Origin: Cyanobacteriota bacterium
Lineage (GTDB): Bacteria; Cyanobacteriota; Cyanobacteriia; Leptolyngbyales; Leptolyngbyaceae
DNA: 41,872 bases
Assembly (NCBI GenBank): GCA_026389365.1
Contig: JAPLHZ010000180.1
Location: 1-41,872 of the forward strand
Reading direction: 5' to 3'
The notes beneath the pieces were generated by a model that saw only the letters and a program-made list of their open reading frames with translations, was not told the DNA's origin and did no database searches. The translations under genes and the position numbers were made by a program. Each line of letters opens with the position of its first letter. Position 1 is the first letter of the stretch. Of this stretch, positions 4,663 to 24,273 are shown one piece after another.

Positions 4663-4860
4663 AGCTTTATAGCGATAAGAGTATACAGCATACTTAAAAA
4701 TTGGTCAATAAGCCCTGTAAAAAATCAGCAATTCCAAATTCAGAATGTAGCCAAAGATAAAAAGCGTAAAATGCTTGCTGGAACGGGGTTTTATTCCAAT
4801 ATGCGGAATCAACGTAATGCTCTATTGAATGACTTATCAAGTTTGTTTTCAGGTTACTGA
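4663..4860 (+). other. Open frame without start, possible coding relic
   Basis: From 4663 to a TGA at 4858-4860 one + frame stays open for 65 codons without a clear start. Its latter half (for example KMLAGTGFYSNMRNQ followed by ALLNDLSSLF) looks protein-like. I do not recognise it. Between the gmd relic and the GT4 relic it may be the tail of another lost polysaccharide gene; chance is not excluded. Confidence 0.25.
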
Positions 4861-4986
4861 CTCTCTAAGAGACTAAGATTCGAGGAGGGAATGCCAAAAA
4901 CCTCAGAAATTAGCTTAATATCTCTTGTTTACATAAAAACGAGTCGTATTTGTATCCTATATTACTGTTTGAATTCGGAATTGCTG

Positions 4987-14738: not shown

Positions 14739-16328
14739 ATGAGCAATGGATACGTTGCACTGGTTCTCCACGCTCACTTACCATTTGTGCGTCACCCCGA
14801 GAGCGACTTTGTTCTCGAAGAAGAATGGCTTTATGAGGCAATTACAGAGACCTATATTCCCCTTCTTCAAGTTTTTGAAGGCTTAAAGCGCGACGGCGTT
14901 AACTTTAAGCTCACCATGAGCATGACCCCGCCCTTGGTTTCGATGTTGGCGGATCCCCTACTCCAAGAGCGCTACAACGAACACTTGGGCGCACTAGAAG
15001 AACTCGCAGAACTCGAAATCGATCGTCATCGTAACAATGGCCACATGAAATATTTGGCGGAATACTACGCCGAAGAGTTTCAAAAAGTCCGACAGATGTG
15101 GGAAAAGTACGACGGCAATCTCATCACCGCCTTCAAAGAATACCAAGATTCAAACAACCTCGACATCATCACCTGCGGCGCAACCCACGGATATTTGCCG
15201 TTGATGAAGATGTACCCCCAAGCGGTATGGGCACAACTCAAGGTCGCAACAGAGCATTACGAAGACACCTTTGGCCGATCGCCCAAGGGCATATGGCTGC
15301 CTGAATGTGCCTACTACGAAGGGCTGGAACGCATGGTGGCGGATGCGGGTCTGCGGTACTTCCTGACGGATGGTCACGGGATTTTATACGGTCGTCCGCG
15401 TCCAAGATTTGGCACCTATGCCCCCATTTTTACTGAATCTGGTGTAGCAGCATTTGGCCGAGATCAGGAGTCATCGCAGCAGGTTTGGTCGTCAGAAGTT
15501 GGCTATCCGGGAGCGGCTGAATATCGTGAATTTTATCGAGATTTGGGCTGGGATGCGGAGTATGAGTACATTAAGCCGTACATTATGCCCAACGGCCAAC
15601 GCAAAAATGTGGGAATCAAGTATCACCGGATTACGGGTAAGACCGTCGGCTCTAGCGATAAGGCTCTGTATGACCCTTACTGGGCCAAGGAAAAAGCCGC
15701 GTCCCATGCCGGAAACTTCATGGAGAACCGCAAACAACAAGTCGGCAGTCTGAGCAATATGATGGGCCGTAAGCCGATCGTGGTTTCGCCCTATGATGCG
15801 GAACTGTTCGGCCATTGGTGGTATGAAGGTCCGTGGTTTATTGATTATTTCCTGCGTAAATCTTGGTTTGACCAAAAGGACTACGAAGTTACTCACCTAT
15901 CTGATTATTTACGCGGCAATCCCACTCAACAAGTGGTGCGGCCTTCGCAGTCAAGCTGGGGCTACAAAGGCTTCCATGAATATTGGCTGAATGATACGAA
16001 TGCGTGGGTTTATCCTCATTTGCACAAAATTGCAGAGCGCATGATCGATCTATCACGCATGGAACCAGAAGACGAGTTGCAATGGAAGGCGCTGAATCAG
16101 GCCTCTCGTGAAGTGTTGTTGGCGCAGTCGTCGGATTGGGCATTCATTATGCGAACCGGAACGATGGTGCCCTATGCAGTGCGGCGAACAAAATCCCATG
16201 TCCAACGGTTTAATAAGTTATACGAGGATATTCGGGCTGGAAAAATCGATTCGGGTTGGTTGGAAAAGGTGGAGGCGATCGATAACATCTTCCCCAACAT
16301 CAACTACCGTGTTTATCGCCCCTTGTAA
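14739..16328 (+). CDS. 1,4-alpha-glucan branching enzyme, GH57 family
   Basis: The 529-residue protein begins GYVALVLHAHLPFVRHPE, the GH57 start. It has the nucleophile region GIWLPECAYYEG (Glu) and the acid/base region VVSPYDAELFGHWWYEGP (Asp). The C-terminal helical domain ending WLEKVEAIDNIFPNINYRVY is typical of GH57 branching enzymes, which make alpha-1,6 branches in glycogen. The ATG at 14739 is the first in frame after the upstream non-coding 228 bp. Its last 24 codons and stop are repeated at 20622-20692 as part of the duplicated integron platform. The intact gene is the copy here. Confidence 0.93.
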   Translation: MSNGYVALVLHAHLPFVRHPESDFVLEEEWLYEAITETYIPLLQVFEGLKRDGVNFKLTMSMTPPLVSMLADPLLQERYNEHLGALEELAELEIDRHRNNGHMKYLAEYYAEEFQKVRQMWEKYDGNLITAFKEYQDSNNLDIITCGATHGYLPLMKMYPQAVWAQLKVATEHYEDTFGRSPKGIWLPECAYYEGLERMVADAGLRYFLTDGHGILYGRPRPRFGTYAPIFTESGVAAFGRDQESSQQVWSSEVGYPGAAEYREFYRDLGWDAEYEYIKPYIMPNGQRKNVGIKYHRITGKTVGSSDKALYDPYWAKEKAASHAGNFMENRKQQVGSLSNMMGRKPIVVSPYDAELFGHWWYEGPWFIDYFLRKSWFDQKDYEVTHLSDYLRGNPTQQVVRPSQSSWGYKGFHEYWLNDTNAWVYPHLHKIAERMIDLSRMEPEDELQWKALNQASREVLLAQSSDWAFIMRTGTMVPYAVRRTKSHVQRFNKLYEDIRAGKIDSGWLEKVEAIDNIFPNINYRVYRPL

Positions 16329-16429
16329 TTGCTTGAGGCTCCAGAGATTCGCTAACAGAATCATTCATTTGCGGATGGTTCTGTGGCGAAAACGATCGAT
16401 TTTAGGAAGTTTGGTTTTGAGACGTTGCC

Positions 16430-16570
16430 TTAGTTGCGCAATTCATGACCGTAGCGAACTCTGCCACCCGCCCAATGCAACTTTTCTCGTAATGTTCGGT
16501 AAGAGTAGTGTTTGAGTCGAATGGCATCACGGACTTGATCTAGGAGTTTCTTCTTAGGTGGGATTTCCAT
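16430..16570 (-). pseudogene. Chimeric ORF: integron integrase N-terminus fused to NAD kinase C-terminus
   Basis: The 46-codon frame starts at ATG 16570. Residues 1-26 (MEIPPKKKLLDQVRDAIRLK then HYSYRT) are the start of an integron-type tyrosine recombinase; in IntI this continues with the first DNA-binding helices. From the shared YRT it continues LREKLHWAGGRVRYGHELRN and stops, which is exactly the last 20 residues of the NAD kinase at 23353-24273. The catalytic Arg/His/Tyr domain is absent, so no recombinase is made. In the fused tail every difference from the true nadK end is synonymous. The minus-strand position directly beside attI, facing away from the cassettes, is the classical intI position. 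Confidence 0.8.
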
Positions 16571-16670
16571 AAGATCTCACGGGTGATTGTGTTGTGAAAA
16601 GCTAACCTTCGTTAAGACTTTATGAGAGGATGGTGACCTGTGGGAGGGGTGACTATACTGAAGTGAGTCC

Positions 16671-16810
16671 ACCTAAGATCCCGATTTGGGTTGTTAGACG
16701 GACAGATTGGCGACCTAAGCACCCGTTTGGATGGGTTAGGCAGAAATACTTCTACCTAAGATCCTGTTTCAGAGTGTTAGGCGGAATGAGTTCAGTCTAA
16801 TAAATAGTTA
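16671..16810 (+). other. attI-like site with three 41-42 bp hairpin repeats, copy A
   Basis: Units begin ACCTAAG at 16671, 16713 and 16754. Each contains CCTAA, about 20 bases, then TTAGG or TTAGA (in GTTAGACGG, GTTAGGCAG, GTTAGGCGG), so each can fold into a hairpin. The region ends in AATAG|TTA at 16803-16810, where the first cassette begins. Its place between the intI start and the first cassette matches attI, where IntI inserts incoming cassettes. A TATACT at 16654-16659 might be the -10 of a cassette promoter, but I see no convincing -35. Confidence 0.65.
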
Positions 16811-16886
16811 GCTGTACAATATCCTAAATAAATTGAGTCAAATAAGAGATAATTCTTGTAAGACGTATAGGCAATGGTGAAAACAG

Positions 16887-18416
16887 TTGAATCGGCAAGC
16901 ACTTATTGAACCAAAAGACGATATTGTTAGCCTCCAAAGTGCGTTTCTCAGATCTAAATCATTGGAAAGTAGGAAGATCTTGGGGCAGTTCTTTACAGGA
17001 TCCGTTGTGTCCGATTACATGGCATCTCTGGTTGTCAAGCCCAAAAGTAAGATTATTCGCATACTGGATGCTGGCGCAGGAACAGGTATATTAGCCGCGT
17101 CTACTGCTTTGTATTGCTTGAATATGGGTTGTAAGACTGTTCATGCTGTACTGTACGAACTAGACTCCGAAGCAGTTGCAAGCCTTAAACAGGCGATGAA
17201 TATCGTTAAGCGTTTGTTTTGCGAACAACTGGGAACATTTACTTACGAAATTTGTTGTGAAGACTTTGTACTTGCTAGACCAGATAAAGAAAAAACTGTT
17301 CACCCCTTTGATATATCGGTAATCAACCCTCCATATTTTAAATACAGTGCGAAAGATTCACCTTATGCTAGAGCGGTAGCCGATTTGTATCACGGCGATC
17401 CGAATATATATGCTTCATTCATGGCAGTTGTAATAGCTTGCATGAAGGCTGACGGTCAAATAATAACGATAACACCTCGCAGCTTCACAAACGGACTATA
17501 CTTCAAGGGTTTCCGTGAATACCTGCTAACTGAATCAGCACTGAGCTTAATTCATATTTTCAAACATCGAGACAAGGTGTTTAATCATGATGACTCAGCG
17601 GTGCTTCAAGAAAACATTATTTGCTACTTTGTTAAAGGCAGTAATACTGACATCATAACAGTTCGATCGAGTGACTGTGATGCCAGCATCAACAATGCTG
17701 ATGAAAAACAATATCCGGTTCATTTAATCGTCGATTATTCAAATGATCAAAGACTAATTAGAATTCCTGAGTCAGATTCTGCTGCTAGCATTTTGAAACA
17801 AGCTGAAACTTTCAAAACCACTTTTGAAGGTGCTGGATATTTTATTTCGACTGGTCGTGTGGTCGAGCATCGTGCCCGCCAATATATCACCGAAGATACT
17901 AGTGCTGAAAACACGGTTCCGCTTTACCGTCCACATAATGTGACACCATTAATGGCAACTTGGATAGGTAATCACAAGAAAGATGTAGCCTTTAAGCTTA
18001 ATGAAGGCCATACCAAACATACGATGAAGAATGGTACTTATGTGTTGCTAAAACGTTTTTCATCCAAAGACGAAAAACGCCGCTTAGTTGCTAGCGTTCA
18101 CCTTGAAAACATGCACTATTGTGAATTGATTGGTTTTGGTAACAAAACAAATTATATCGGTATATTAGGTGGTGAATTATCCACTATTGAAGCCTATGGA
18201 CTTGCAACTGTTCTTAATTCATCATTCATGGACAAGTATTTCAGGTGCATTTCAGGAAATACACAAGTAAATGCTACTGAAATTAGAGTAATGAAATTTC
18301 CATCCCGCGACCAAGTGAAAGAAATTGGCGATAAATCGCACAAGCTGAGGCTTTTTGAAACGGCTAAAATTGACTTGATTGTGAATCCAATTCTTGGTGT
18401 AGTAGATTCAATATAA
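16887..18416 (+). CDS. Type II DNA adenine-N6 methyltransferase (PstI/BsuBI-type partner)
   Basis: The 509-residue protein has KILGQFFTGSVVSDYMA, the SAM-binding motif ILDAGAGTGILAAST, and the catalytic motif IV NPPY (SVINPPYFKYSAKDSPYA), all features of N6-adenine methyltransferases of the Eco57I/PstI kind. It should protect the site cut by the following nuclease; by analogy to PstI/BsuBI that is CTGCAG. The frame opens with TTG at 16887, the first start after the in-frame TGA at 16878-16880. A tiny 11-codon ORF from ATG 16874 overlaps it, and no strong ribosome-binding site is seen. It ends 11 bp before the nuclease gene. The short leader from attI is typical of cassette genes. Confidence 0.9.
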   Translation: MNRQALIEPKDDIVSLQSAFLRSKSLESRKILGQFFTGSVVSDYMASLVVKPKSKIIRILDAGAGTGILAASTALYCLNMGCKTVHAVLYELDSEAVASLKQAMNIVKRLFCEQLGTFTYEICCEDFVLARPDKEKTVHPFDISVINPPYFKYSAKDSPYARAVADLYHGDPNIYASFMAVVIACMKADGQIITITPRSFTNGLYFKGFREYLLTESALSLIHIFKHRDKVFNHDDSAVLQENIICYFVKGSNTDIITVRSSDCDASINNADEKQYPVHLIVDYSNDQRLIRIPESDSAASILKQAETFKTTFEGAGYFISTGRVVEHRARQYITEDTSAENTVPLYRPHNVTPLMATWIGNHKKDVAFKLNEGHTKHTMKNGTYVLLKRFSSKDEKRRLVASVHLENMHYCELIGFGNKTNYIGILGGELSTIEAYGLATVLNSSFMDKYFRCISGNTQVNATEIRVMKFPSRDQVKEIGDKSHKLRLFETAKIDLIVNPILGVVDSI

Positions 18417-18427
18417 GGGGGTAAAAT

Positions 18428-19414
18428 TTGGAATTCACGGCACAACAAAAAGAAAAACTAAATGAAGCAAAAACATTATTGACTGCCTTTGGGCTGCCCA
18501 AAGCACAGTGTAACGATCGATCGGCATGGGTCTTTTTGTCGCTGGCTAATATAAAACCTTTGGACGACTGGAGTTCATCGACAGCACCGCTTTTGCCAAC
18601 CGTGAATATCATGGAATTCATCCGTAATGAATATGGAATGGACTATAAGCCGAACAGTCGCGAAACTATCAGAAGACAAACACTTCATCAATTCGAGCAA
18701 GCCCGTATTGTCGATCGAAACCGAGACGATCCTACGCGAGCAACTAATAGTAAAGATAATAACTATTCATTGAATCAGTCAATATTGGAGATTCTGGCGG
18801 AATATCCACACGGCGGCTGGTTGGGGAAAGTTCAAGACTACAAGGACGCGGTGCCCGAATTGAAGGCACAATACGAACGCGCTCTCGATCTGCACAAAAT
18901 TCCAATTAGCTTACCCAGCGGCGAAACCATTACACTGTCACCTGGAAAGCATAACCAGCTTCACGCCGACATTGTTCACGAATTCTGTTCGCGCTTCATC
19001 GGTGCTGGTGGTCAATTGTTATACATTGGTGATACCGCCAGCAGTCGAAAAGAAGGCGGAAAGCTGATGTTCTTAGAAGCCGAATACCTGGAATCCTTGG
19101 GTGTCCCCCCAATATCACATGAAAAATTGCCAGATATTGTAGTATACGACGAAGATCGGGAATGGCTGTTTTTGATTGAAGCAGTTACTAGTCATGGCCC
19201 TATATCCCCAAAACGTTGGGTTGAACTTGAAGAAGCCTTCAAAGATTGTAAGGTTGGTCTTGTGTATGTGACAGCGTTTCCAGACCGTGCTGAATTTCGC
19301 AAGAATGCGGCTGATATTGCATGGGAAACTGAAGTGTGGATTGCCGATAACCCAGACCATATGGTTCATTTTAATGGTGAGCGTTTTCTTGGCCCTCATG
19401 ACAAAAGCAGCTAA
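18428..19414 (+). CDS. Type II restriction endonuclease, BsuBI/PstI family
   Basis: The 328-residue protein matches this family throughout its C-terminal half: [55 protein letters not shown] and [18 protein letters not shown], then [12 protein letters not shown] and [18 protein letters not shown]. The PD..EA pattern in [18 protein letters not shown] is the likely metal-binding catalytic core. PstI and BsuBI cut CTGCAG; the same specificity is inferred. Start is TTG at 18428 with AAGGGGG nine bases upstream. The TAA stop (19412-19414) lies inside the R'' box of the cassette's attC site. Confidence 0.95.
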
Positions 19415-19500
19415 CAAGCGCTTGCACGCGGAACGGTGACATACACTATCAGTTATGATGCCTATTTAATTGCCGTCCGGTGAAGCGCAAGCCGTTAGGC
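19409..19500 (+). other. attC recombination site 1
   Basis: R'' is AGCTAAC (19409-19415) and R' is GTTAGGC (19494-19500). The arms AAGCGCTTGCACGCGGAAC and GTCCGGTGAAGCGCAAGCC pair imperfectly, leaving unpaired bases as in known attC hairpins. Crossover is expected between G19494 and T19495. Confidence 0.88.
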
Positions 19501-19629
19501 TTTATTCGCAGGTTTAAGACAGAACTGATTTATCCAGTTCATGGCGATAGACTTCGTTCATGTAGCCGCAAATTTTATTCACCAGATCGAATAATTGCAC
19601 ATGGCAAAGTTGTAATAATGGCAGAGTAA

Positions 19630-20478
19630 TTGATCACAAAATCTATGCGAGTACTCAGCTACAATATTCATGGTTGGCGAACGATCGAAGGTAAACCTAA
19701 TTACGATCTACTCCTGCGATTGCTCACTTCGATCGAAGCCGACGTGATTGGACTCAACGAGGTCTATCATCCTGAGCCAACCGAAGCAGGGCCAGCACTC
19801 AATTGGCTTGCTGAACAACTCGGTATGCAAGTCGTGTTTGCCGCCAAACGATCCTACGAAGAGGGCGATCGTCCCTTTGGAGCTTCTGGAAATGCCCTCC
19901 TGACGCGCTTTCCCCTCGTCTCAACCTACTCCGGCTTGTACACACCGATCGCAGGGAAAAAGCAACGCGGCTGGTTAGAAACACAACTCGACCTGGGAAA
20001 CCGCCGCACCCTCTCCATCCTCGTGACCCACCTCGCTCACGAAGATGAGACCACCCGCCAGAATCAATTCGCTGAACAGATCAACTGGTTCAACCAAAGT
20101 GGTCAGCGCCCCGATCTAATTCTGGGAGACTTCAACTGCCTCAATCCCAAAGACTTTACCCATCTCTCAGACTTGGATGCCGTATTGAACCAGTTGCCTG
20201 AAGTCGCCCAACATCTGTCCAACTCGCCCAACGGACCCCAACTCACCCACCAAGTTGAACAGGCAGGCTACATTGATACAGGTGCATGGCAAGGGTTGCG
20301 CGATCGCGGCACCTTTGTAGGCGCTGAGATTCCCGTGCGGCTCGATTACATCTGGGTGCGATCAGATTCGGCGGTGCGCTTGGTCAAGGCTGCAATTGTC
20401 GAAGAAGAGATCGGTCAAGAAGCCTCAGATCATCGTCCTGTAATGGCAGACTTCAAACTGCAAACACTGGATGAGTAA
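19630..20478 (+). CDS. Endonuclease/exonuclease/phosphatase (EEP) family hydrolase
   Basis: The protein (about 282 residues, or 274 from the inner ATG 19654) shows all EEP motifs in order: LSYNIHGW (Asn), IGLNEVY (metal-binding Glu), GNALLTRFPL, LVTHLAHED (His), ILGDFNCL (Asp/Asn), VRLDYIWV and ASDHRPVMAD (catalytic Asp-His). Such Mg-dependent enzymes cleave phosphodiester or phosphate-ester bonds in DNA, lipids or inositol phosphates; the substrate is not apparent. The frame's first ATG lies at 19630. It sits after attC site 1 but contains many CGATCG words like the host chromosome, so it may be host DNA rather than cassette cargo. Confidence 0.88.
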   Translation: MITKSMRVLSYNIHGWRTIEGKPNYDLLLRLLTSIEADVIGLNEVYHPEPTEAGPALNWLAEQLGMQVVFAAKRSYEEGDRPFGASGNALLTRFPLVSTYSGLYTPIAGKKQRGWLETQLDLGNRRTLSILVTHLAHEDETTRQNQFAEQINWFNQSGQRPDLILGDFNCLNPKDFTHLSDLDAVLNQLPEVAQHLSNSPNGPQLTHQVEQAGYIDTGAWQGLRDRGTFVGAEIPVRLDYIWVRSDSAVRLVKAAIVEEEIGQEASDHRPVMADFKLQTLDE

Positions 20479-20807
20479 AATGCTTGAACGGTAATGTAGT
20501 GAGTGGTAAGGTGGGAGAACGCCCCCAAAGCGAGAGACTGAGCATACAAGCATCACTCCCCAAGTTAAAAATCCATGAATATTCTTCCTGCCAAGTGAGA
20601 GATTGAGTATACTGAGGCTAAGGTTGGAAAAGGTGGAGGCGATCGATAACATCTTCCCCAACATCAACTACCGCGTTTATCGCCCCTTGTAATTGCCCCC
20701 ATATAGTTGTTTGAGGTTCCAGAGATTCGCCAACAGAGTCATTCATTTACGGATGGTTCTGTGGCGAAAACGATCGATTTTAGGAAGTTTGGTTTTGAGA
20801 CGTTGCC

Positions 20808-20949
20808 TTAGTTGCGCAATTCATGACCGTAGCGAACTCTGCCACCCGCCCAATGCAACTTTTCTCGTAATGTTCGGTTAAGAGTAGTGTTTGAGTCGAA
20901 TGGCATCACGGACTTGATCTAGGAGTTTCTTCTTAGGTGGGATTTCCAT
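20808..20949 (-). pseudogene. intI/nadK chimera, copy B (frameshifted)
   Basis: This copy has the same start (ATG at 20949) and tail as 16430-16570, but one additional T in CGGTTAAG at 20876-20881 gives a TAA after HYS. It therefore encodes only a 23-codon remnant. The loss of frame here but not in copy A argues against either product having a needed function. Confidence 0.75.
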
Positions 20950-21049
20950 AAGATCTCACGGGTGATTGTGTTGTGAAAAGCTAACCTTCGTTAAGACTTT
21001 ATGAGAGGATGGCGACCTATGGGAGGGGTGACTATACTGAAGTGAGTCC

Positions 21050-21191
21050 ACCTAAAGATCCCAATTTGGGGTGTTAGACGGACAGATTGGCGACCTAAGC
21101 ACCCGTTTGGATGGGTTAGGCAGAAATACTTCTACCTAAGATCCTGTTTCAGAGTGTTAGGCGGAATGAGTTCAGTCTAAATAAATAGTTA
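21050..21191 (+). other. attI-like site with three hairpin repeats, copy B
   Basis: Repeat units begin at 21050 (ACCTAAAG), 21093 and 21134 and match copy A apart from small differences in the first unit. The site ends AATAG|TTA with the crossover G at 21188; cassette 2 starts at 21189. Confidence 0.65.
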
Positions 21192-22654
21192 TACGGCTTG
21201 AGCGTTTGGTAAAGGCGAGAATAAAATGGATGTTAGATTTTTTCTATATCATTGACAAATACAATACTTTTGCAAGTGCCCTTGCAAAATAAGTCAAAAA
21301 GATAACATGGCTGTACTACGTGGTTACGCTCAATGTGAAACATGCGGAGAAAATTATATTTTGCGAGCGGGAGTTGGAACAGAAAAATTTCAGCCTCACA
21401 CTTTTGATTGCAAGTCTTGTGGAATATCAATATCAGTAATAGTTAGAGCAAATCCACCTAGTGCCCATTTTGAACCCGAAGAAAACGTCGTTATTGAAGA
21501 TAGTGAAGGCGAAAATGCAGTTATCTTAAACCTGCACCCATTTTTTGCATTTGACAGCGATGAAATACACGATCGTGTAGCATTTCCTTCTTTAATGTAT
21601 GGATCAAAAATAGAACCATATCTAAGGCTTGTCCCAAATCAATATTTTATGGGTATTCAGACTCAAGACATAGCACTACAATTTGGTGTGCCAAATGCAG
21701 CTAATCTCTGGACTACAGTTAAAAATGTCTTTTTGCTGCAAGAGCAAGAGGGGGCAGAGAAAAGTAAAAGAGTTAGGAAAGCAATTGAATATTACGAAAA
21801 GCAACGTCAAAAATATTTCTCGGAAACAAATGTGTCAACTTCCAAAGAGGTTGTATTTAATTTCTTCGACAGTCTCTTCTATCCACGCTTTGGAAAGATT
21901 TTAGAGCCTGCAATTAAATTAATTTACGAGATCAAACGTGACTATCCACAAGAGTTTTCGGAGTTTTTGGAATTTTACTCAAGTAATCTTAAGACTCAGC
22001 ATTTAAGGCAATATCTTTCAATATTTTCTGATTATTTCAAGATATATAATCAGCTAAGTCAAATGGTTGTACATTCGCGAATTGATGATGAGGATGTTGA
22101 AGACAAGATAGTTGGCTCAAAGTCATTTGAAGCCGTGAAATTATATTATGGTCAAGCCTATGAATCTATCACGAGCTTTTTTGTGGTATTTGCTTGTCTA
22201 AACAATATTTTTCTTGGACGAACTTACGACCAGTTTGAATCAATGACATTCAGTAGGTATATGAAGGACCTGAGCAAGGAAAATAAAGCTAATCCTTTTA
22301 AACTCACACACCCATTCTATACTTTCACGGATGGTTTAGACAGTACGTTAAGAAACGGTTCACATCATGCTTCGATATGGAGGGACGGAGAAAAGGTTTT
22401 ATATAGAAGCGGTGGCACTGGTGCTCAACGAGAAATCGCGTACAGTCGCTACCTTCACTTGTGTAATAAGTTGACGATATCGCTATCGGTGTTATTTATC
22501 ATTGAGCTTGAGTTGGGAGATGTACAATAAATAAAAATATTTGTGCCGTTAGGTAAATGATGTGCAGATCGCCGTATAACAATTCGGTTGCAGCGGACGG
22601 TTGAAAGATTTTGGTATAGAAGCAAAGGTTAATCGCCGCCGCTGAACCGAGTCG
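21189..22654 (+). mobile_element. Integron gene cassette 2 (zinc-ribbon/HEPN-like protein)
   Basis: The cassette starts TTATACGGC at 21189 and ends at G22654. GTTATACGGC is the exact complement of GCCGTATAAC at 22571-22580, the R'' side of its own attC. It carries one gene on the + strand. Confidence 0.88.
21307..22530 (+). CDS. Zinc-ribbon protein with C-terminal HEPN-like motif, function unknown
   Basis: The 407-residue protein starts with a zinc ribbon: CETC at residues 10-13 and CKSC at 35-38. The rest is mainly helical and AT-rich in coding. Near the C-terminus RNGSHH (Arg349-His354) fits the R-x4-H pattern, often RN followed by H, of HEPN-type ribonuclease domains, with helical flanks (LHLCNKLTISLSVLFIIEL). 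HEPN proteins in mobile DNA are frequently toxins or phage-defence nucleases, so defence is possible, but I do not recognise the family and the motif is short. ATG 21307 is the only cassette gene start and follows about 118 bp after attI. No antitoxin-like partner gene is visible in the cassette. Confidence 0.75.
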   Translation: MAVLRGYAQCETCGENYILRAGVGTEKFQPHTFDCKSCGISISVIVRANPPSAHFEPEENVVIEDSEGENAVILNLHPFFAFDSDEIHDRVAFPSLMYGSKIEPYLRLVPNQYFMGIQTQDIALQFGVPNAANLWTTVKNVFLLQEQEGAEKSKRVRKAIEYYEKQRQKYFSETNVSTSKEVVFNFFDSLFYPRFGKILEPAIKLIYEIKRDYPQEFSEFLEFYSSNLKTQHLRQYLSIFSDYFKIYNQLSQMVVHSRIDDEDVEDKIVGSKSFEAVKLYYGQAYESITSFFVVFACLNNIFLGRTYDQFESMTFSRYMKDLSKENKANPFKLTHPFYTFTDGLDSTLRNGSHHASIWRDGEKVLYRSGGTGAQREIAYSRYLHLCNKLTISLSVLFIIELELGDVQ

Positions 22655-22660
22655 TTAGGC
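22574..22660 (+). other. attC recombination site 2
   Basis: R'' is GTATAAC (22574-22580) and R' is GTTAGGC (22654-22660). The arms AATTCGGTTGCAGCGG and CCGCTGAACCGAGTC pair almost completely, with one extra G on the left arm, the typical extrahelical base that sets strand choice. Crossover lies after G22654. Confidence 0.9.
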
Positions 22661-23259
22661 GGCATTGCCCGTCACAGTCATTGGAGAGTATCATGAAATT
22701 CTACAAAGCACCCTGGAGCAAGTTACTCATCATCACCTCCTCGCTCGTCACCGCATTGGGTGCTGGCATCGCGATCGGCTTCATTTGGAGCGGTCACGAG
22801 GTGCTGACGTGGGTTGCAGCACTTCCGATTGCAATCGTCGCTGGCAGCGCGCTGTTTATGATTCGCGGATATACCGTTACTGCTAACGCCCTTTTAATCC
22901 ATCGTCTGTTCTGGACGACGCGGCTGCCGTTGGGCTGCCTCGAATCGGTGCTCTTTGAACCCGATGCGATGCGCGGAAGCATTCGTCTGTGCGGCAACGG
23001 CGGCTTGTTTTCATTCACGGGCTTGTTCCGCAACAAGACGCTGGGTAATTACCACGCGTTTGCCACCGACCTGCGTCGAACGGTGGTATTGCGTTTCCCT
23101 TCACGCACCGTAGTTGTCTCACCAGCGGCACCGGAGACTTTTGCTCTTGATATTGCAGCTTCTAGCCATGCCGCCTAACAAGGCGCTTCAGCGAACCTGG
23201 CCATCGCGCCTCGGTTGCAATAATTGCTTTTCGGCGGCCAGGTCGCTGAGCTTACTTCG
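22655..23259 (+). mobile_element. Integron gene cassette 3 (small membrane protein)
   Basis: The cassette runs from TTAGGCGGCA (22655) to G23259. GTTAGGCGGCA is the complement of TGCCGCCTAAC at 23169-23179, the R'' side of its attC. One gene fills it. Its GC content is visibly higher than cassettes 1 and 2, so the three came from different sources. Confidence 0.88.
22693..23178 (+). CDS. Small membrane protein, possibly with a PH-like domain
   Basis: The 161-residue protein has two N-terminal membrane helices (LLIITSSLVTALGAGIAIGF and LTWVAALPIAIVAGSALFMI) and a cytoplasmic beta-rich domain (RGYTVTANALLIHRLFWTTR, then LPLGCLESVLFEPDAM and TVVLRFPSRTVVVSP) that resembles bacterial PH-like domains. 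Function unknown. ATG 22693 follows a GGAGAG site; an upstream TTG at 22681 is in frame but lacks one. The TAA stop (23176-23178) lies in the attC R'' box. Proteins like this are common cargo of integron cassettes. Confidence 0.75.
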   Translation: MKFYKAPWSKLLIITSSLVTALGAGIAIGFIWSGHEVLTWVAALPIAIVAGSALFMIRGYTVTANALLIHRLFWTTRLPLGCLESVLFEPDAMRGSIRLCGNGGLFSFTGLFRNKTLGNYHAFATDLRRTVVLRFPSRTVVVSPAAPETFALDIAASSHAA

Positions 23260-23265
23260 TTATGT
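23173..23265 (+). other. attC recombination site 3 (end of array)
   Basis: R'' is GCCTAAC (23173-23179) and R' is GTTATGT (23259-23265). The arms GCTTCAGCGAACCTGGCC and GGCCAGGTCGCTGAGC pair with single unpaired bases. The bases after it (TTATGTGGCAG) would be the start of a further cassette, but no matching R'' box follows before nadK, so the array is broken off here. Confidence 0.9.
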
Positions 23266-23352
23266 GGCAGAAATTCAAAAATTTCAGAGCTTGAAACCCG
23301 TTCCGAATTTGGAATTGCTGCTGTGCATTAGAAAGACTGGGTTTCTAAAAAG

Positions 23353-24273
23353 TTAATTTCGCAATTCATGACCATAGCGAACTCGGCCACCTGCCCAATG
23401 CAACTTTTCCCGTAGCGTTCGGTAATAGCAATAATCCTCCCGCAAAACAACAAATTCCGCATTCCGATCGGTCATGCGAATATCAACCCGATGACCGGGA
23501 TACAGCGTTGTTGCCATGACCCCATCCATCCAAAGTTTGGTCGTCAAATCAGGATCGCACAATGCCCAAACGCTAACGACACAGCCCGCTGGGATAATAA
23601 TGGCTCGACTCGACAAACTTAAGGGATTAATCGGAGTAATGACGATCGCTTCCATTCCCGGATGCACAATCGGACCGTTGGCCGCCAGCGTATAACAAGT
23701 GCTGCCCGTGGGGGTCGCAATCAACAAGCCATCGCCTTGATATTGATCCACCACTTGCCCATCGATTTCCATTTCCAAAATAGACGTGACCATCCGATCG
23801 GCGGAAGCGGGTTTGATGCACATCTCATTCAGGGCCAAATATCGGTCGCTCACAGGTTCAAGATTAGAACGATCGTTCCCTTCAAACATCGTCGCCTGCA
23901 ACATCATTCGTCGCTGAATCGCATATCGATCGTCCGCCAATCGGTCCCAGGTTGTTTCGCTGTCAAACTGATCAGCAGATTCGGTCAAAAATCCTAAATG
24001 CCCACCAATATTGACGGCCAAAATCGGAATCCCTTCAGGGGCTAAATACCGCGCTGCCCCCAATGCGGTTCCATCCCCCCCCAACACCACGGCTAGGTCG
24101 ATCGGTCGATCGCTACAAGCAATAAATGCCGGATAGGGATTGTCATAGGCTCCCGAAGCGCCCACTAAAACCGTCGAACCTCTGGCTTCGAGAACCTCCG
24201 CACTTTGCCTTGCTGTGCGTTCTGCGATCCGATTGCCTGCTTTGTAGGTAATCACTACCGTCTTTAACTGCAT
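23353..24273 (-). CDS. nadK: NAD kinase
   Basis: The 306-residue enzyme phosphorylates NAD to NADP with ATP. Motifs: VVLGGDGTALGAARYL (GGDGT active site), NIGGHLGFLTE, YLALNEMCIKPASADRM (NE/D motif) and GDGLLIATPTGSTCYTLAANGPIVHP. Length is normal. The ATG at 24273 lies 8 bp after the upstream membrane-protein gene, so the two are probably co-transcribed. The last 20 codons exist in two further, synonymously diverged copies at 16430-16492 and 20808-20870, fused to an integrase start. The integron array ends about 90 bp from the stop. Confidence 0.95.
   Translation of the reverse strand: MQLKTVVITYKAGNRIAERTARQSAEVLEARGSTVLVGASGAYDNPYPAFIACSDRPIDLAVVLGGDGTALGAARYLAPEGIPILAVNIGGHLGFLTESADQFDSETTWDRLADDRYAIQRRMMLQATMFEGNDRSNLEPVSDRYLALNEMCIKPASADRMVTSILEMEIDGQVVDQYQGDGLLIATPTGSTCYTLAANGPIVHPGMEAIVITPINPLSLSSRAIIIPAGCVVSVWALCDPDLTTKLWMDGVMATTLYPGHRVDIRMTDRNAEFVVLREDYCYYRTLREKLHWAGGRVRYGHELRN

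Follow-up and report, generated by a model that had tools for sequence, protein, structure and literature searches.

An integrase-less chromosomal integron between GH57 and nadK in a cyanobacterium, with an intI/nadK chimeric ORF as its probable recombination scar

The window, by which we mean the whole stretch of 41,872 nucleotides analysed here, contains at 16430–16570 (minus strand) an ORF of 46 amino acids that joins the start of an integron integrase gene (intI) to the end of nadK. We think it quite probable that this chimera is a recombination scar in a decayed chromosomal integron that has lost its integrase, and that the array entered the locus through homology in nadK. The genome of the window (G000, contig C103) was compared with three genomes of the same genus, G001 (JANXWB010000082), G002 and G003. 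All of these, contig C103 included, are drafts, and G001 and G003 are metagenome assemblies.

Organization of the array

The insert sits between two convergent genes. The left flank is an intact GH57 1,4-alpha-glucan branching enzyme gene (14739–16328, plus strand; Pfam Glyco_hydro_57 4e-40, BE_C 1e-40) that is colinear in G002, and the right flank an intact nadK (23353–24273, minus strand; PRK02645, 448 bits) whose protein is identical in G001 and whose 3′ end is re-supplied (see below). GH57 is followed by the native nadK–GH57 intergenic region (16329–16429), which is common to G002 and carries a 14-bp deletion in this copy, by the chimeric ORF and by an orphan platform leader with a putative attI1 (16571–16807). 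This leader has three CCTAA/TTAGG repeats and a crossover at G16807^T16808. Both attI copies of the platform, putative attI1 and attI2, adjoin an intI remnant, and in G034 the terminal motif of attI likewise precedes an intI by ∼ 300 bp.

The first cassette at attI1 (16808–19494, plus strand) encodes a type II restriction-modification system. It consists of an Eco57I/Alw26-like adenine methyltransferase (16887–18416, plus strand) and a BsuBI/PstI family restriction endonuclease (18428–19414, plus strand; E 2e-62), and its attC (19410–19500, plus strand; R″ GCTAAC, R′ GTTAGGC) folds on the bottom strand. The cassette recurs in G001 contig C10 at 98% identity over 2.7 kb, from attI crossover to attC crossover; the same end points and this identity are in keeping with a mobile cassette. 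Next comes a segment (about 19495–20621, plus strand) with an endonuclease/exonuclease/phosphatase-family gene and without an attC of its own, for which (19500–20625) no DNA match was found in G001–G003. Beyond the second platform copy, described below, the first cassette at attI2 (21189–22654, plus strand) encodes a 407-aa protein (21307–22530) that matched no known family and has its attC at 22574–22660 (plus strand). The last cassette (22655–23259, plus strand) encodes a bacterial PH-domain protein (bPH_5) and is associated with the distal attC of the array (23173–23265, plus strand). All three attC sites have R″/R′ boxes and an imperfect hairpin, and all fold better than shuffled sequences (z -2.4, -4.5 and -3.6, in the order given). 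A 53-bp repeat and then a spacer of ∼ 32 bp separate the array from nadK.

No functional intI with a catalytic domain was found in the insert, where each platform copy keeps only ∼ 23 intI codons. The other intI pieces in the same genome (contigs C140, C259 and C358) are fragments, none of them above the TIGR02249 cut-off. Judged by its sequence, the array is a chromosomal integron in decay, which has lost its integrase and keeps two orphan copies of attI.

The chimeric ORF and its joint

The chimera is composed of ∼ 23 intI codons, ending at codon 23–24, and the last ∼ 73 nt of nadK. HMM and DNA comparison assign 16503–16570 (minus strand) to intI, comparison of the tails and a joint alignment assign 16430–16499 (minus strand) to nadK, and the TTA at 16500–16502 is common to both parents. 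A stretch of 60 bp around the intI start shares 83% identity with other intI fragments of the genome and 87% with one in G001 (E about 1e-10 to 1e-12). The 5′ part also matches the profiles of integron integrase PRK15417 (E 2.4e-4) and Phage_int_SAM_4 (E 0.008), and it contains PPKKKLLDQVRDAIRLKHYSYRT, which matches intact intI genes of many relatives at their start. The 3′ part corresponds to NadK 285–306 with no residue different. Its DNA is 88% identical to the local nadK over 76 bp, and the eight base differences (codons 286, 287, 288, 294, 297, 300, 305 and 306) are synonymous without exception. The original prediction, made from the letters of the window, that an intI start is here joined to a nadK end with about eight differences in the tail, all synonymous, is thus borne out by DNA identity, profile matches and codon comparison. 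It had also placed the joint at a YRT shared by the two proteins. This YRT is indeed shared because of a short DNA match of 3–6 bp at the joint, which it mirrors, and the recombinase part stops at codon 23–24.

The intI match is 20 out of 20 up to CTCTTA, and nadK is matched from TTACCG onward. Three shared bases (TTA) are certain, the number expected for an intI of the TTATCG type, and a parental intI of the TTACCG type would raise this to six. Over the 31 bases that follow the joint, the chimera is identical to G001-type nadK at every position, to its own nadK at 28 and to G002 at 26. Joints with 3–6 bp of microhomology are typical of illegitimate recombination, and the intI/nadK joint appears to be of this illegitimate kind.

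A block comprising the GH57 end, the scar and attI is present twice (16258–16810 and 20622–21191; 95% identical). The second copy begins with the last ∼ 73 bp of GH57 and a native intergenic region without the 14-bp deletion (20622–20807), followed by the second intI/nadK joint (20808–20949, minus strand) and the second orphan leader with attI2 (20950–21188), whose crossover at G21188^T21189 was placed by alignment of the blocks. The two platform copies are homologous as far as GTTA and go on into different cassettes. At the second joint one extra base shifts the frame, which closes at once (…HYS*); copy 1 of the chimeric ORF happens to be in frame.

The nadK and GH57 loci of relatives

Alignment of the tail and the GH57 3′ end with the loci of related cyanobacteria, a check that the original prediction had proposed, gave two informative arrangements. 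In G002 the site is empty: nadK residues 257–306 are uninterrupted and run into intergenic sequence, after which comes the convergent GH57. In G001 nadK is followed, in order, by a spacer, a repeat, an attC, two cassettes, an attI, a degenerate intI, a MORN-repeat gene and ilvN. A second proposed check, a search for a strain with a complete intI between nadK and GH57, found none among the relatives; the degenerate intI of G001 does lie downstream of nadK, but its flank is formed by the MORN-repeat gene and ilvN and not by GH57. GH57 of G001 adjoins an RNase-J-like gene, which has different neighbours in G000 and G002, and nadK of G003 adjoins a ferredoxin gene. In the window's own genome, intI fragments adjoin a MORN/ilvN pair (C140) and ftsH (C259), and in G002 an intact intI adjoins ftsH. 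Among the nadK loci examined, direct adjacency of nadK and GH57 is confined to this genus.

G001 can be set aside as the direct donor, because the platform behind its nadK is of another intI and attI type than that of the window. When 194 relatives were searched for a platform of the window's intI/attI type in complete form, only partial matches came up.

In a genome of another genus (G017), nadK is followed after ∼ 240 bp by a remnant of the C-terminal part of an intI, oriented like nadK (L091 4940–5176). Since this is one such case among ∼ 40 genera, not clearly beyond chance, we do not claim that nadK is a hotspot.

Origin of the two nadK tails

The end of the intact nadK (CGA … CGA AAT TAA), the ∼ 32-bp spacer and the repeat are the same in G001, where they stand directly before the attC array, which indicates that the 3′ end of the intact gene came with the array. 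The distal tail of the chimera (AGA at codon 297; CGC AAC TAA) and the DNA onward to GH57 agree with G002. Because the uninterrupted junction of G002 has the same alleles and the same intergenic type, the distal tail and the GH57 side are taken to be native. The idea that the chimera's tail arrived with the platform is therefore not supported: its distal half is native by the G002 junction, and what arrived was the end of the intact nadK. The accompanying suggestion, that an integron inserted at the nadK 3′ end and re-supplied it, survives in its second half, given the G001 alleles; of integrase-mediated insertion there is no sign, and insertion by the integron integrase is not indicated.

The proximal tail of the chimera (ACA TTA CGA … GCG) agrees with G001, and the intact nadK agrees there with G002. 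At positions 857, 858, 863 and 881 the chimera has the G001 base and the intact gene the G002 base, and at positions 888, 914 and 917 this is reversed, a pattern that a single crossover between 881 and 888, giving rise to both tails, would account for. The mosaic rests on seven sites in four sequences, for which a perfect 4 + 3 segregation has about 1 chance in 18, and the pattern would prove only one recombination somewhere among the four sequences. Outgroup codons at the informative sites are too variable across cyanobacteria to polarise the alleles.

GH57 of G000 is 93.8% identical to that of G002 versus 91.2% for G001, and the DNA upstream of nadK 88.7% versus 85.3%; nadK itself is closer to G001. 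With its flanks nearest G002 and the gene closer to G001, nadK has probably been exchanged. Since GH57 and the nadK-upstream DNA group G000 with G002, the G002 type is the expected native state.

Proposed history and alternatives

The locus started out as two convergent neighbours, nadK and GH57, ∼ 100 bp apart, as the empty site of G002 shows. Homologous recombination inside nadK would then have brought in a nadK 3′ end followed by an array, the arrangement seen in G001, giving an intact nadK with the incoming last codons, the spacer and the array. On the far side the incoming DNA would have been joined, within intI, to the YRT-coding stretch of nadK by 3–6 bp of microhomology, truncating intI after ∼ 23 codons and leaving GH57 with the native nadK end still joined to it. 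The simplest single scheme would be a circle excised between intI and nadK, which have the same orientation, followed by one crossover of the circle's nadK tail with the native nadK tail between positions 881 and 888. The block of GH57 end, scar and attI would have been duplicated later, and at least one cassette would have been gained or lost after the truncation of intI, by an integrase acting in trans. Because two already truncated platform copies carry different first cassettes, such an integrase may have acted on attI1 or attI2; loss of a cassette from one copy would serve equally. We infer the entry by homologous recombination in nadK and the order of these events. The microhomology at the joint can be read off directly, and the process behind it may have been any of three, as homology-facilitated illegitimate recombination or a resolved merodiploid would give nearly the same product as the circle.

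Homology-facilitated illegitimate recombination of linear DNA, with no circle, is a possible variant of the best explanation that deserves some weight. It is a known process, with homology on one side and microhomology on the other (PMC3240628), and would yield the observed arrangement in one event. The microhomology joint is clear, and the tail mosaic is compatible with more than one scheme. However, this route predicts a wholly native tail in the chimera, the proximal half of which is of the G001 type; for this route to account for the tail, the native allele must already have resembled G001 proximally. The mosaic tails fit integration of a circle by a single crossover at least as well and, with a G002-type native state, that scheme would be favoured over one-sided illegitimate recombination, which is only a preference.

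A tandem nadK merodiploid, reduced through loss of the DNA that lay between intI and the YRT of the native nadK, is a further variant of the best explanation, and a rather unlikely one. With intI and nadK pointing the same way, the observed fusion is just what a deletion would produce, and the two sites have partial homology around the joint. No genome with two such nadK copies was seen, however, and the G001-like proximal half of the tail is equally hard to explain.

It is very improbable that a tyrosine-recombinase element targeted the 3′ end of nadK, restoring the gene and displacing its tail. Islands at tRNA genes restore the gene with their own copy and leave the displaced tail at the far end, and the duplicated 76-bp 3′ end, with synonymous replacement at one end and a displaced tail at the other, has this appearance. 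Yet the insert contains no intact integrase, the fusion of the displaced tail falls within the reading frame of an integrase, identity between the two tails is no more than 88%, and the array behind nadK in G001 has no displaced nadK tail at its other side.

That the 46-codon ORF is a functional fusion peptide can hardly be credited: copy 1 is open and in frame and its nadK-part changes are all synonymous, but descent from functional nadK genes accounts for those changes, a promoter and terminator scan of the platform found neither, with no promoter-like site near the chimeric ORF, no intI/nadK fusion was seen in the other genomes among the relatives searched, and the frameshift of copy 2 right at the joint means that the ORF is not maintained as a protein. 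The intI/nadK joint is almost certainly the scar of a recombination event rather than a working protein, and we do not expect the ORF to make a functional one.

Repeats at the array ends and related elements

The 53-bp repeat beside nadK (23268–23320; CAGAAATTC…GAATTTGGAATTGCTG) has CAGCAATTCCAAATTC as its outer end on the minus strand. At seven of eight places in three genomes it stands directly after the distal attC, with unrelated DNA beyond; the other places are L065 4486–4548, L211 108–171, L231 586–648, L232 2707–2767, L233 2491–2554, L234 3036–3093 and L236 317–377. Its outer 16 bp were met only twice in a further 0.5 Mb of sequence belonging to two of the three genomes. Copies of CAGCAATTCCAAATTC are found at the intI side of several platforms and inverted copies at the array end (L065 2155 and 4538; L234 1391 and 3091; L013 2194; L014 1217; L085 3459; L088 2299). 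Inverted CAGCAATTCCAAATTC stands at both ends in G001 contigs C39 and C48, where no target duplication was seen and no transposase was identified; in C48 (L234) the two ends enclose a unit of 1.7 kb that has an attI-like repeat region, a ParA-like cassette, an attC and no intI. One occurrence in G001 (contig C6) is at a site resembling an ftsH locus without an integron. It is possible that a mobile unit has its outer end at the 53-bp repeat. As no target duplication was seen and the C6 occurrence is at an integron-free ftsH-like site, a transposon can only be hypothesized.

An element of ∼ 260 bp with the same 16-bp inverted ends is present in several copies in the window's own genome (window 4726–4986; L232 4493–4750 and 5206–5465) and is probably a miniature inverted-repeat element. 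Some 50 bp of the nadK–GH57 intergenic DNA (16349–16398) recur, 88–90% identical, in contigs C224, C275 and C232 of the same genome as a dispersed short repeat. Regions of attI-like repeats also lie beside cassettes without an intI, at two places in G003 and one in G001 (L073 1440–1630; L077 1500–1640; L083 8460–8540).

Discussion

A cluster of attC sites that lacks an integron integrase is termed a CALIN (IntegronFinder 2.0, PMC9024848). The array belongs to this class, which is defined by at least two attC sites and the lack of a neighbouring functional integrase: it has three attC sites, and no functional intI adjoins them. It differs in that the intI leader and attI are both retained in duplicate and that what is left of intI runs into the end of a housekeeping gene. 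Decay of intI is common, about a third of intI genes being pseudogenes (PMC2426708). Arrays can be acquired by homologous recombination after natural transformation, through flanking homology and with no need of the integrase (PMC3410848); in contrast, the homology here would be chromosomal nadK and one end would be illegitimate, as read from the sequence. Integrons flanked by miniature inverted-repeat elements are known (PMC3934969), and the array end here is likewise a short repeat whose outer 16 bp recur inverted at integron left ends, but neither a transposase nor a target duplication was seen. A genomic island targeting the 3′ end was tried as a further candidate and rejected, there being no integrase gene and the candidate att cores (the tails) being 88% identical. 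The combination of an integron scar and a re-supplied end at nadK was not found in the literature searched. It needs no new kind of system: it is a known kind with an unusual scar.

With little confidence we also raise a broader idea, that platforms and integrase-less arrays in this genus might move as defined units through homology of housekeeping genes, either as a circle or segment cut between intI and its neighbour or as a unit bounded by inverted CAGCAATTCCAAATTC, with orphan attI sites still fed in trans.

The 46-codon ORF is itself of little importance; its joint records the entry of the array into a housekeeping locus. Together with the empty site of G002 and the array of G001, the scar forms a readable record of a sedentary array changing its address and losing its integrase, a relocation in which the integrase was not the mover. 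That the first cassette differs between the two orphan attI copies suggests that cassettes may still be exchanged once intI is lost.
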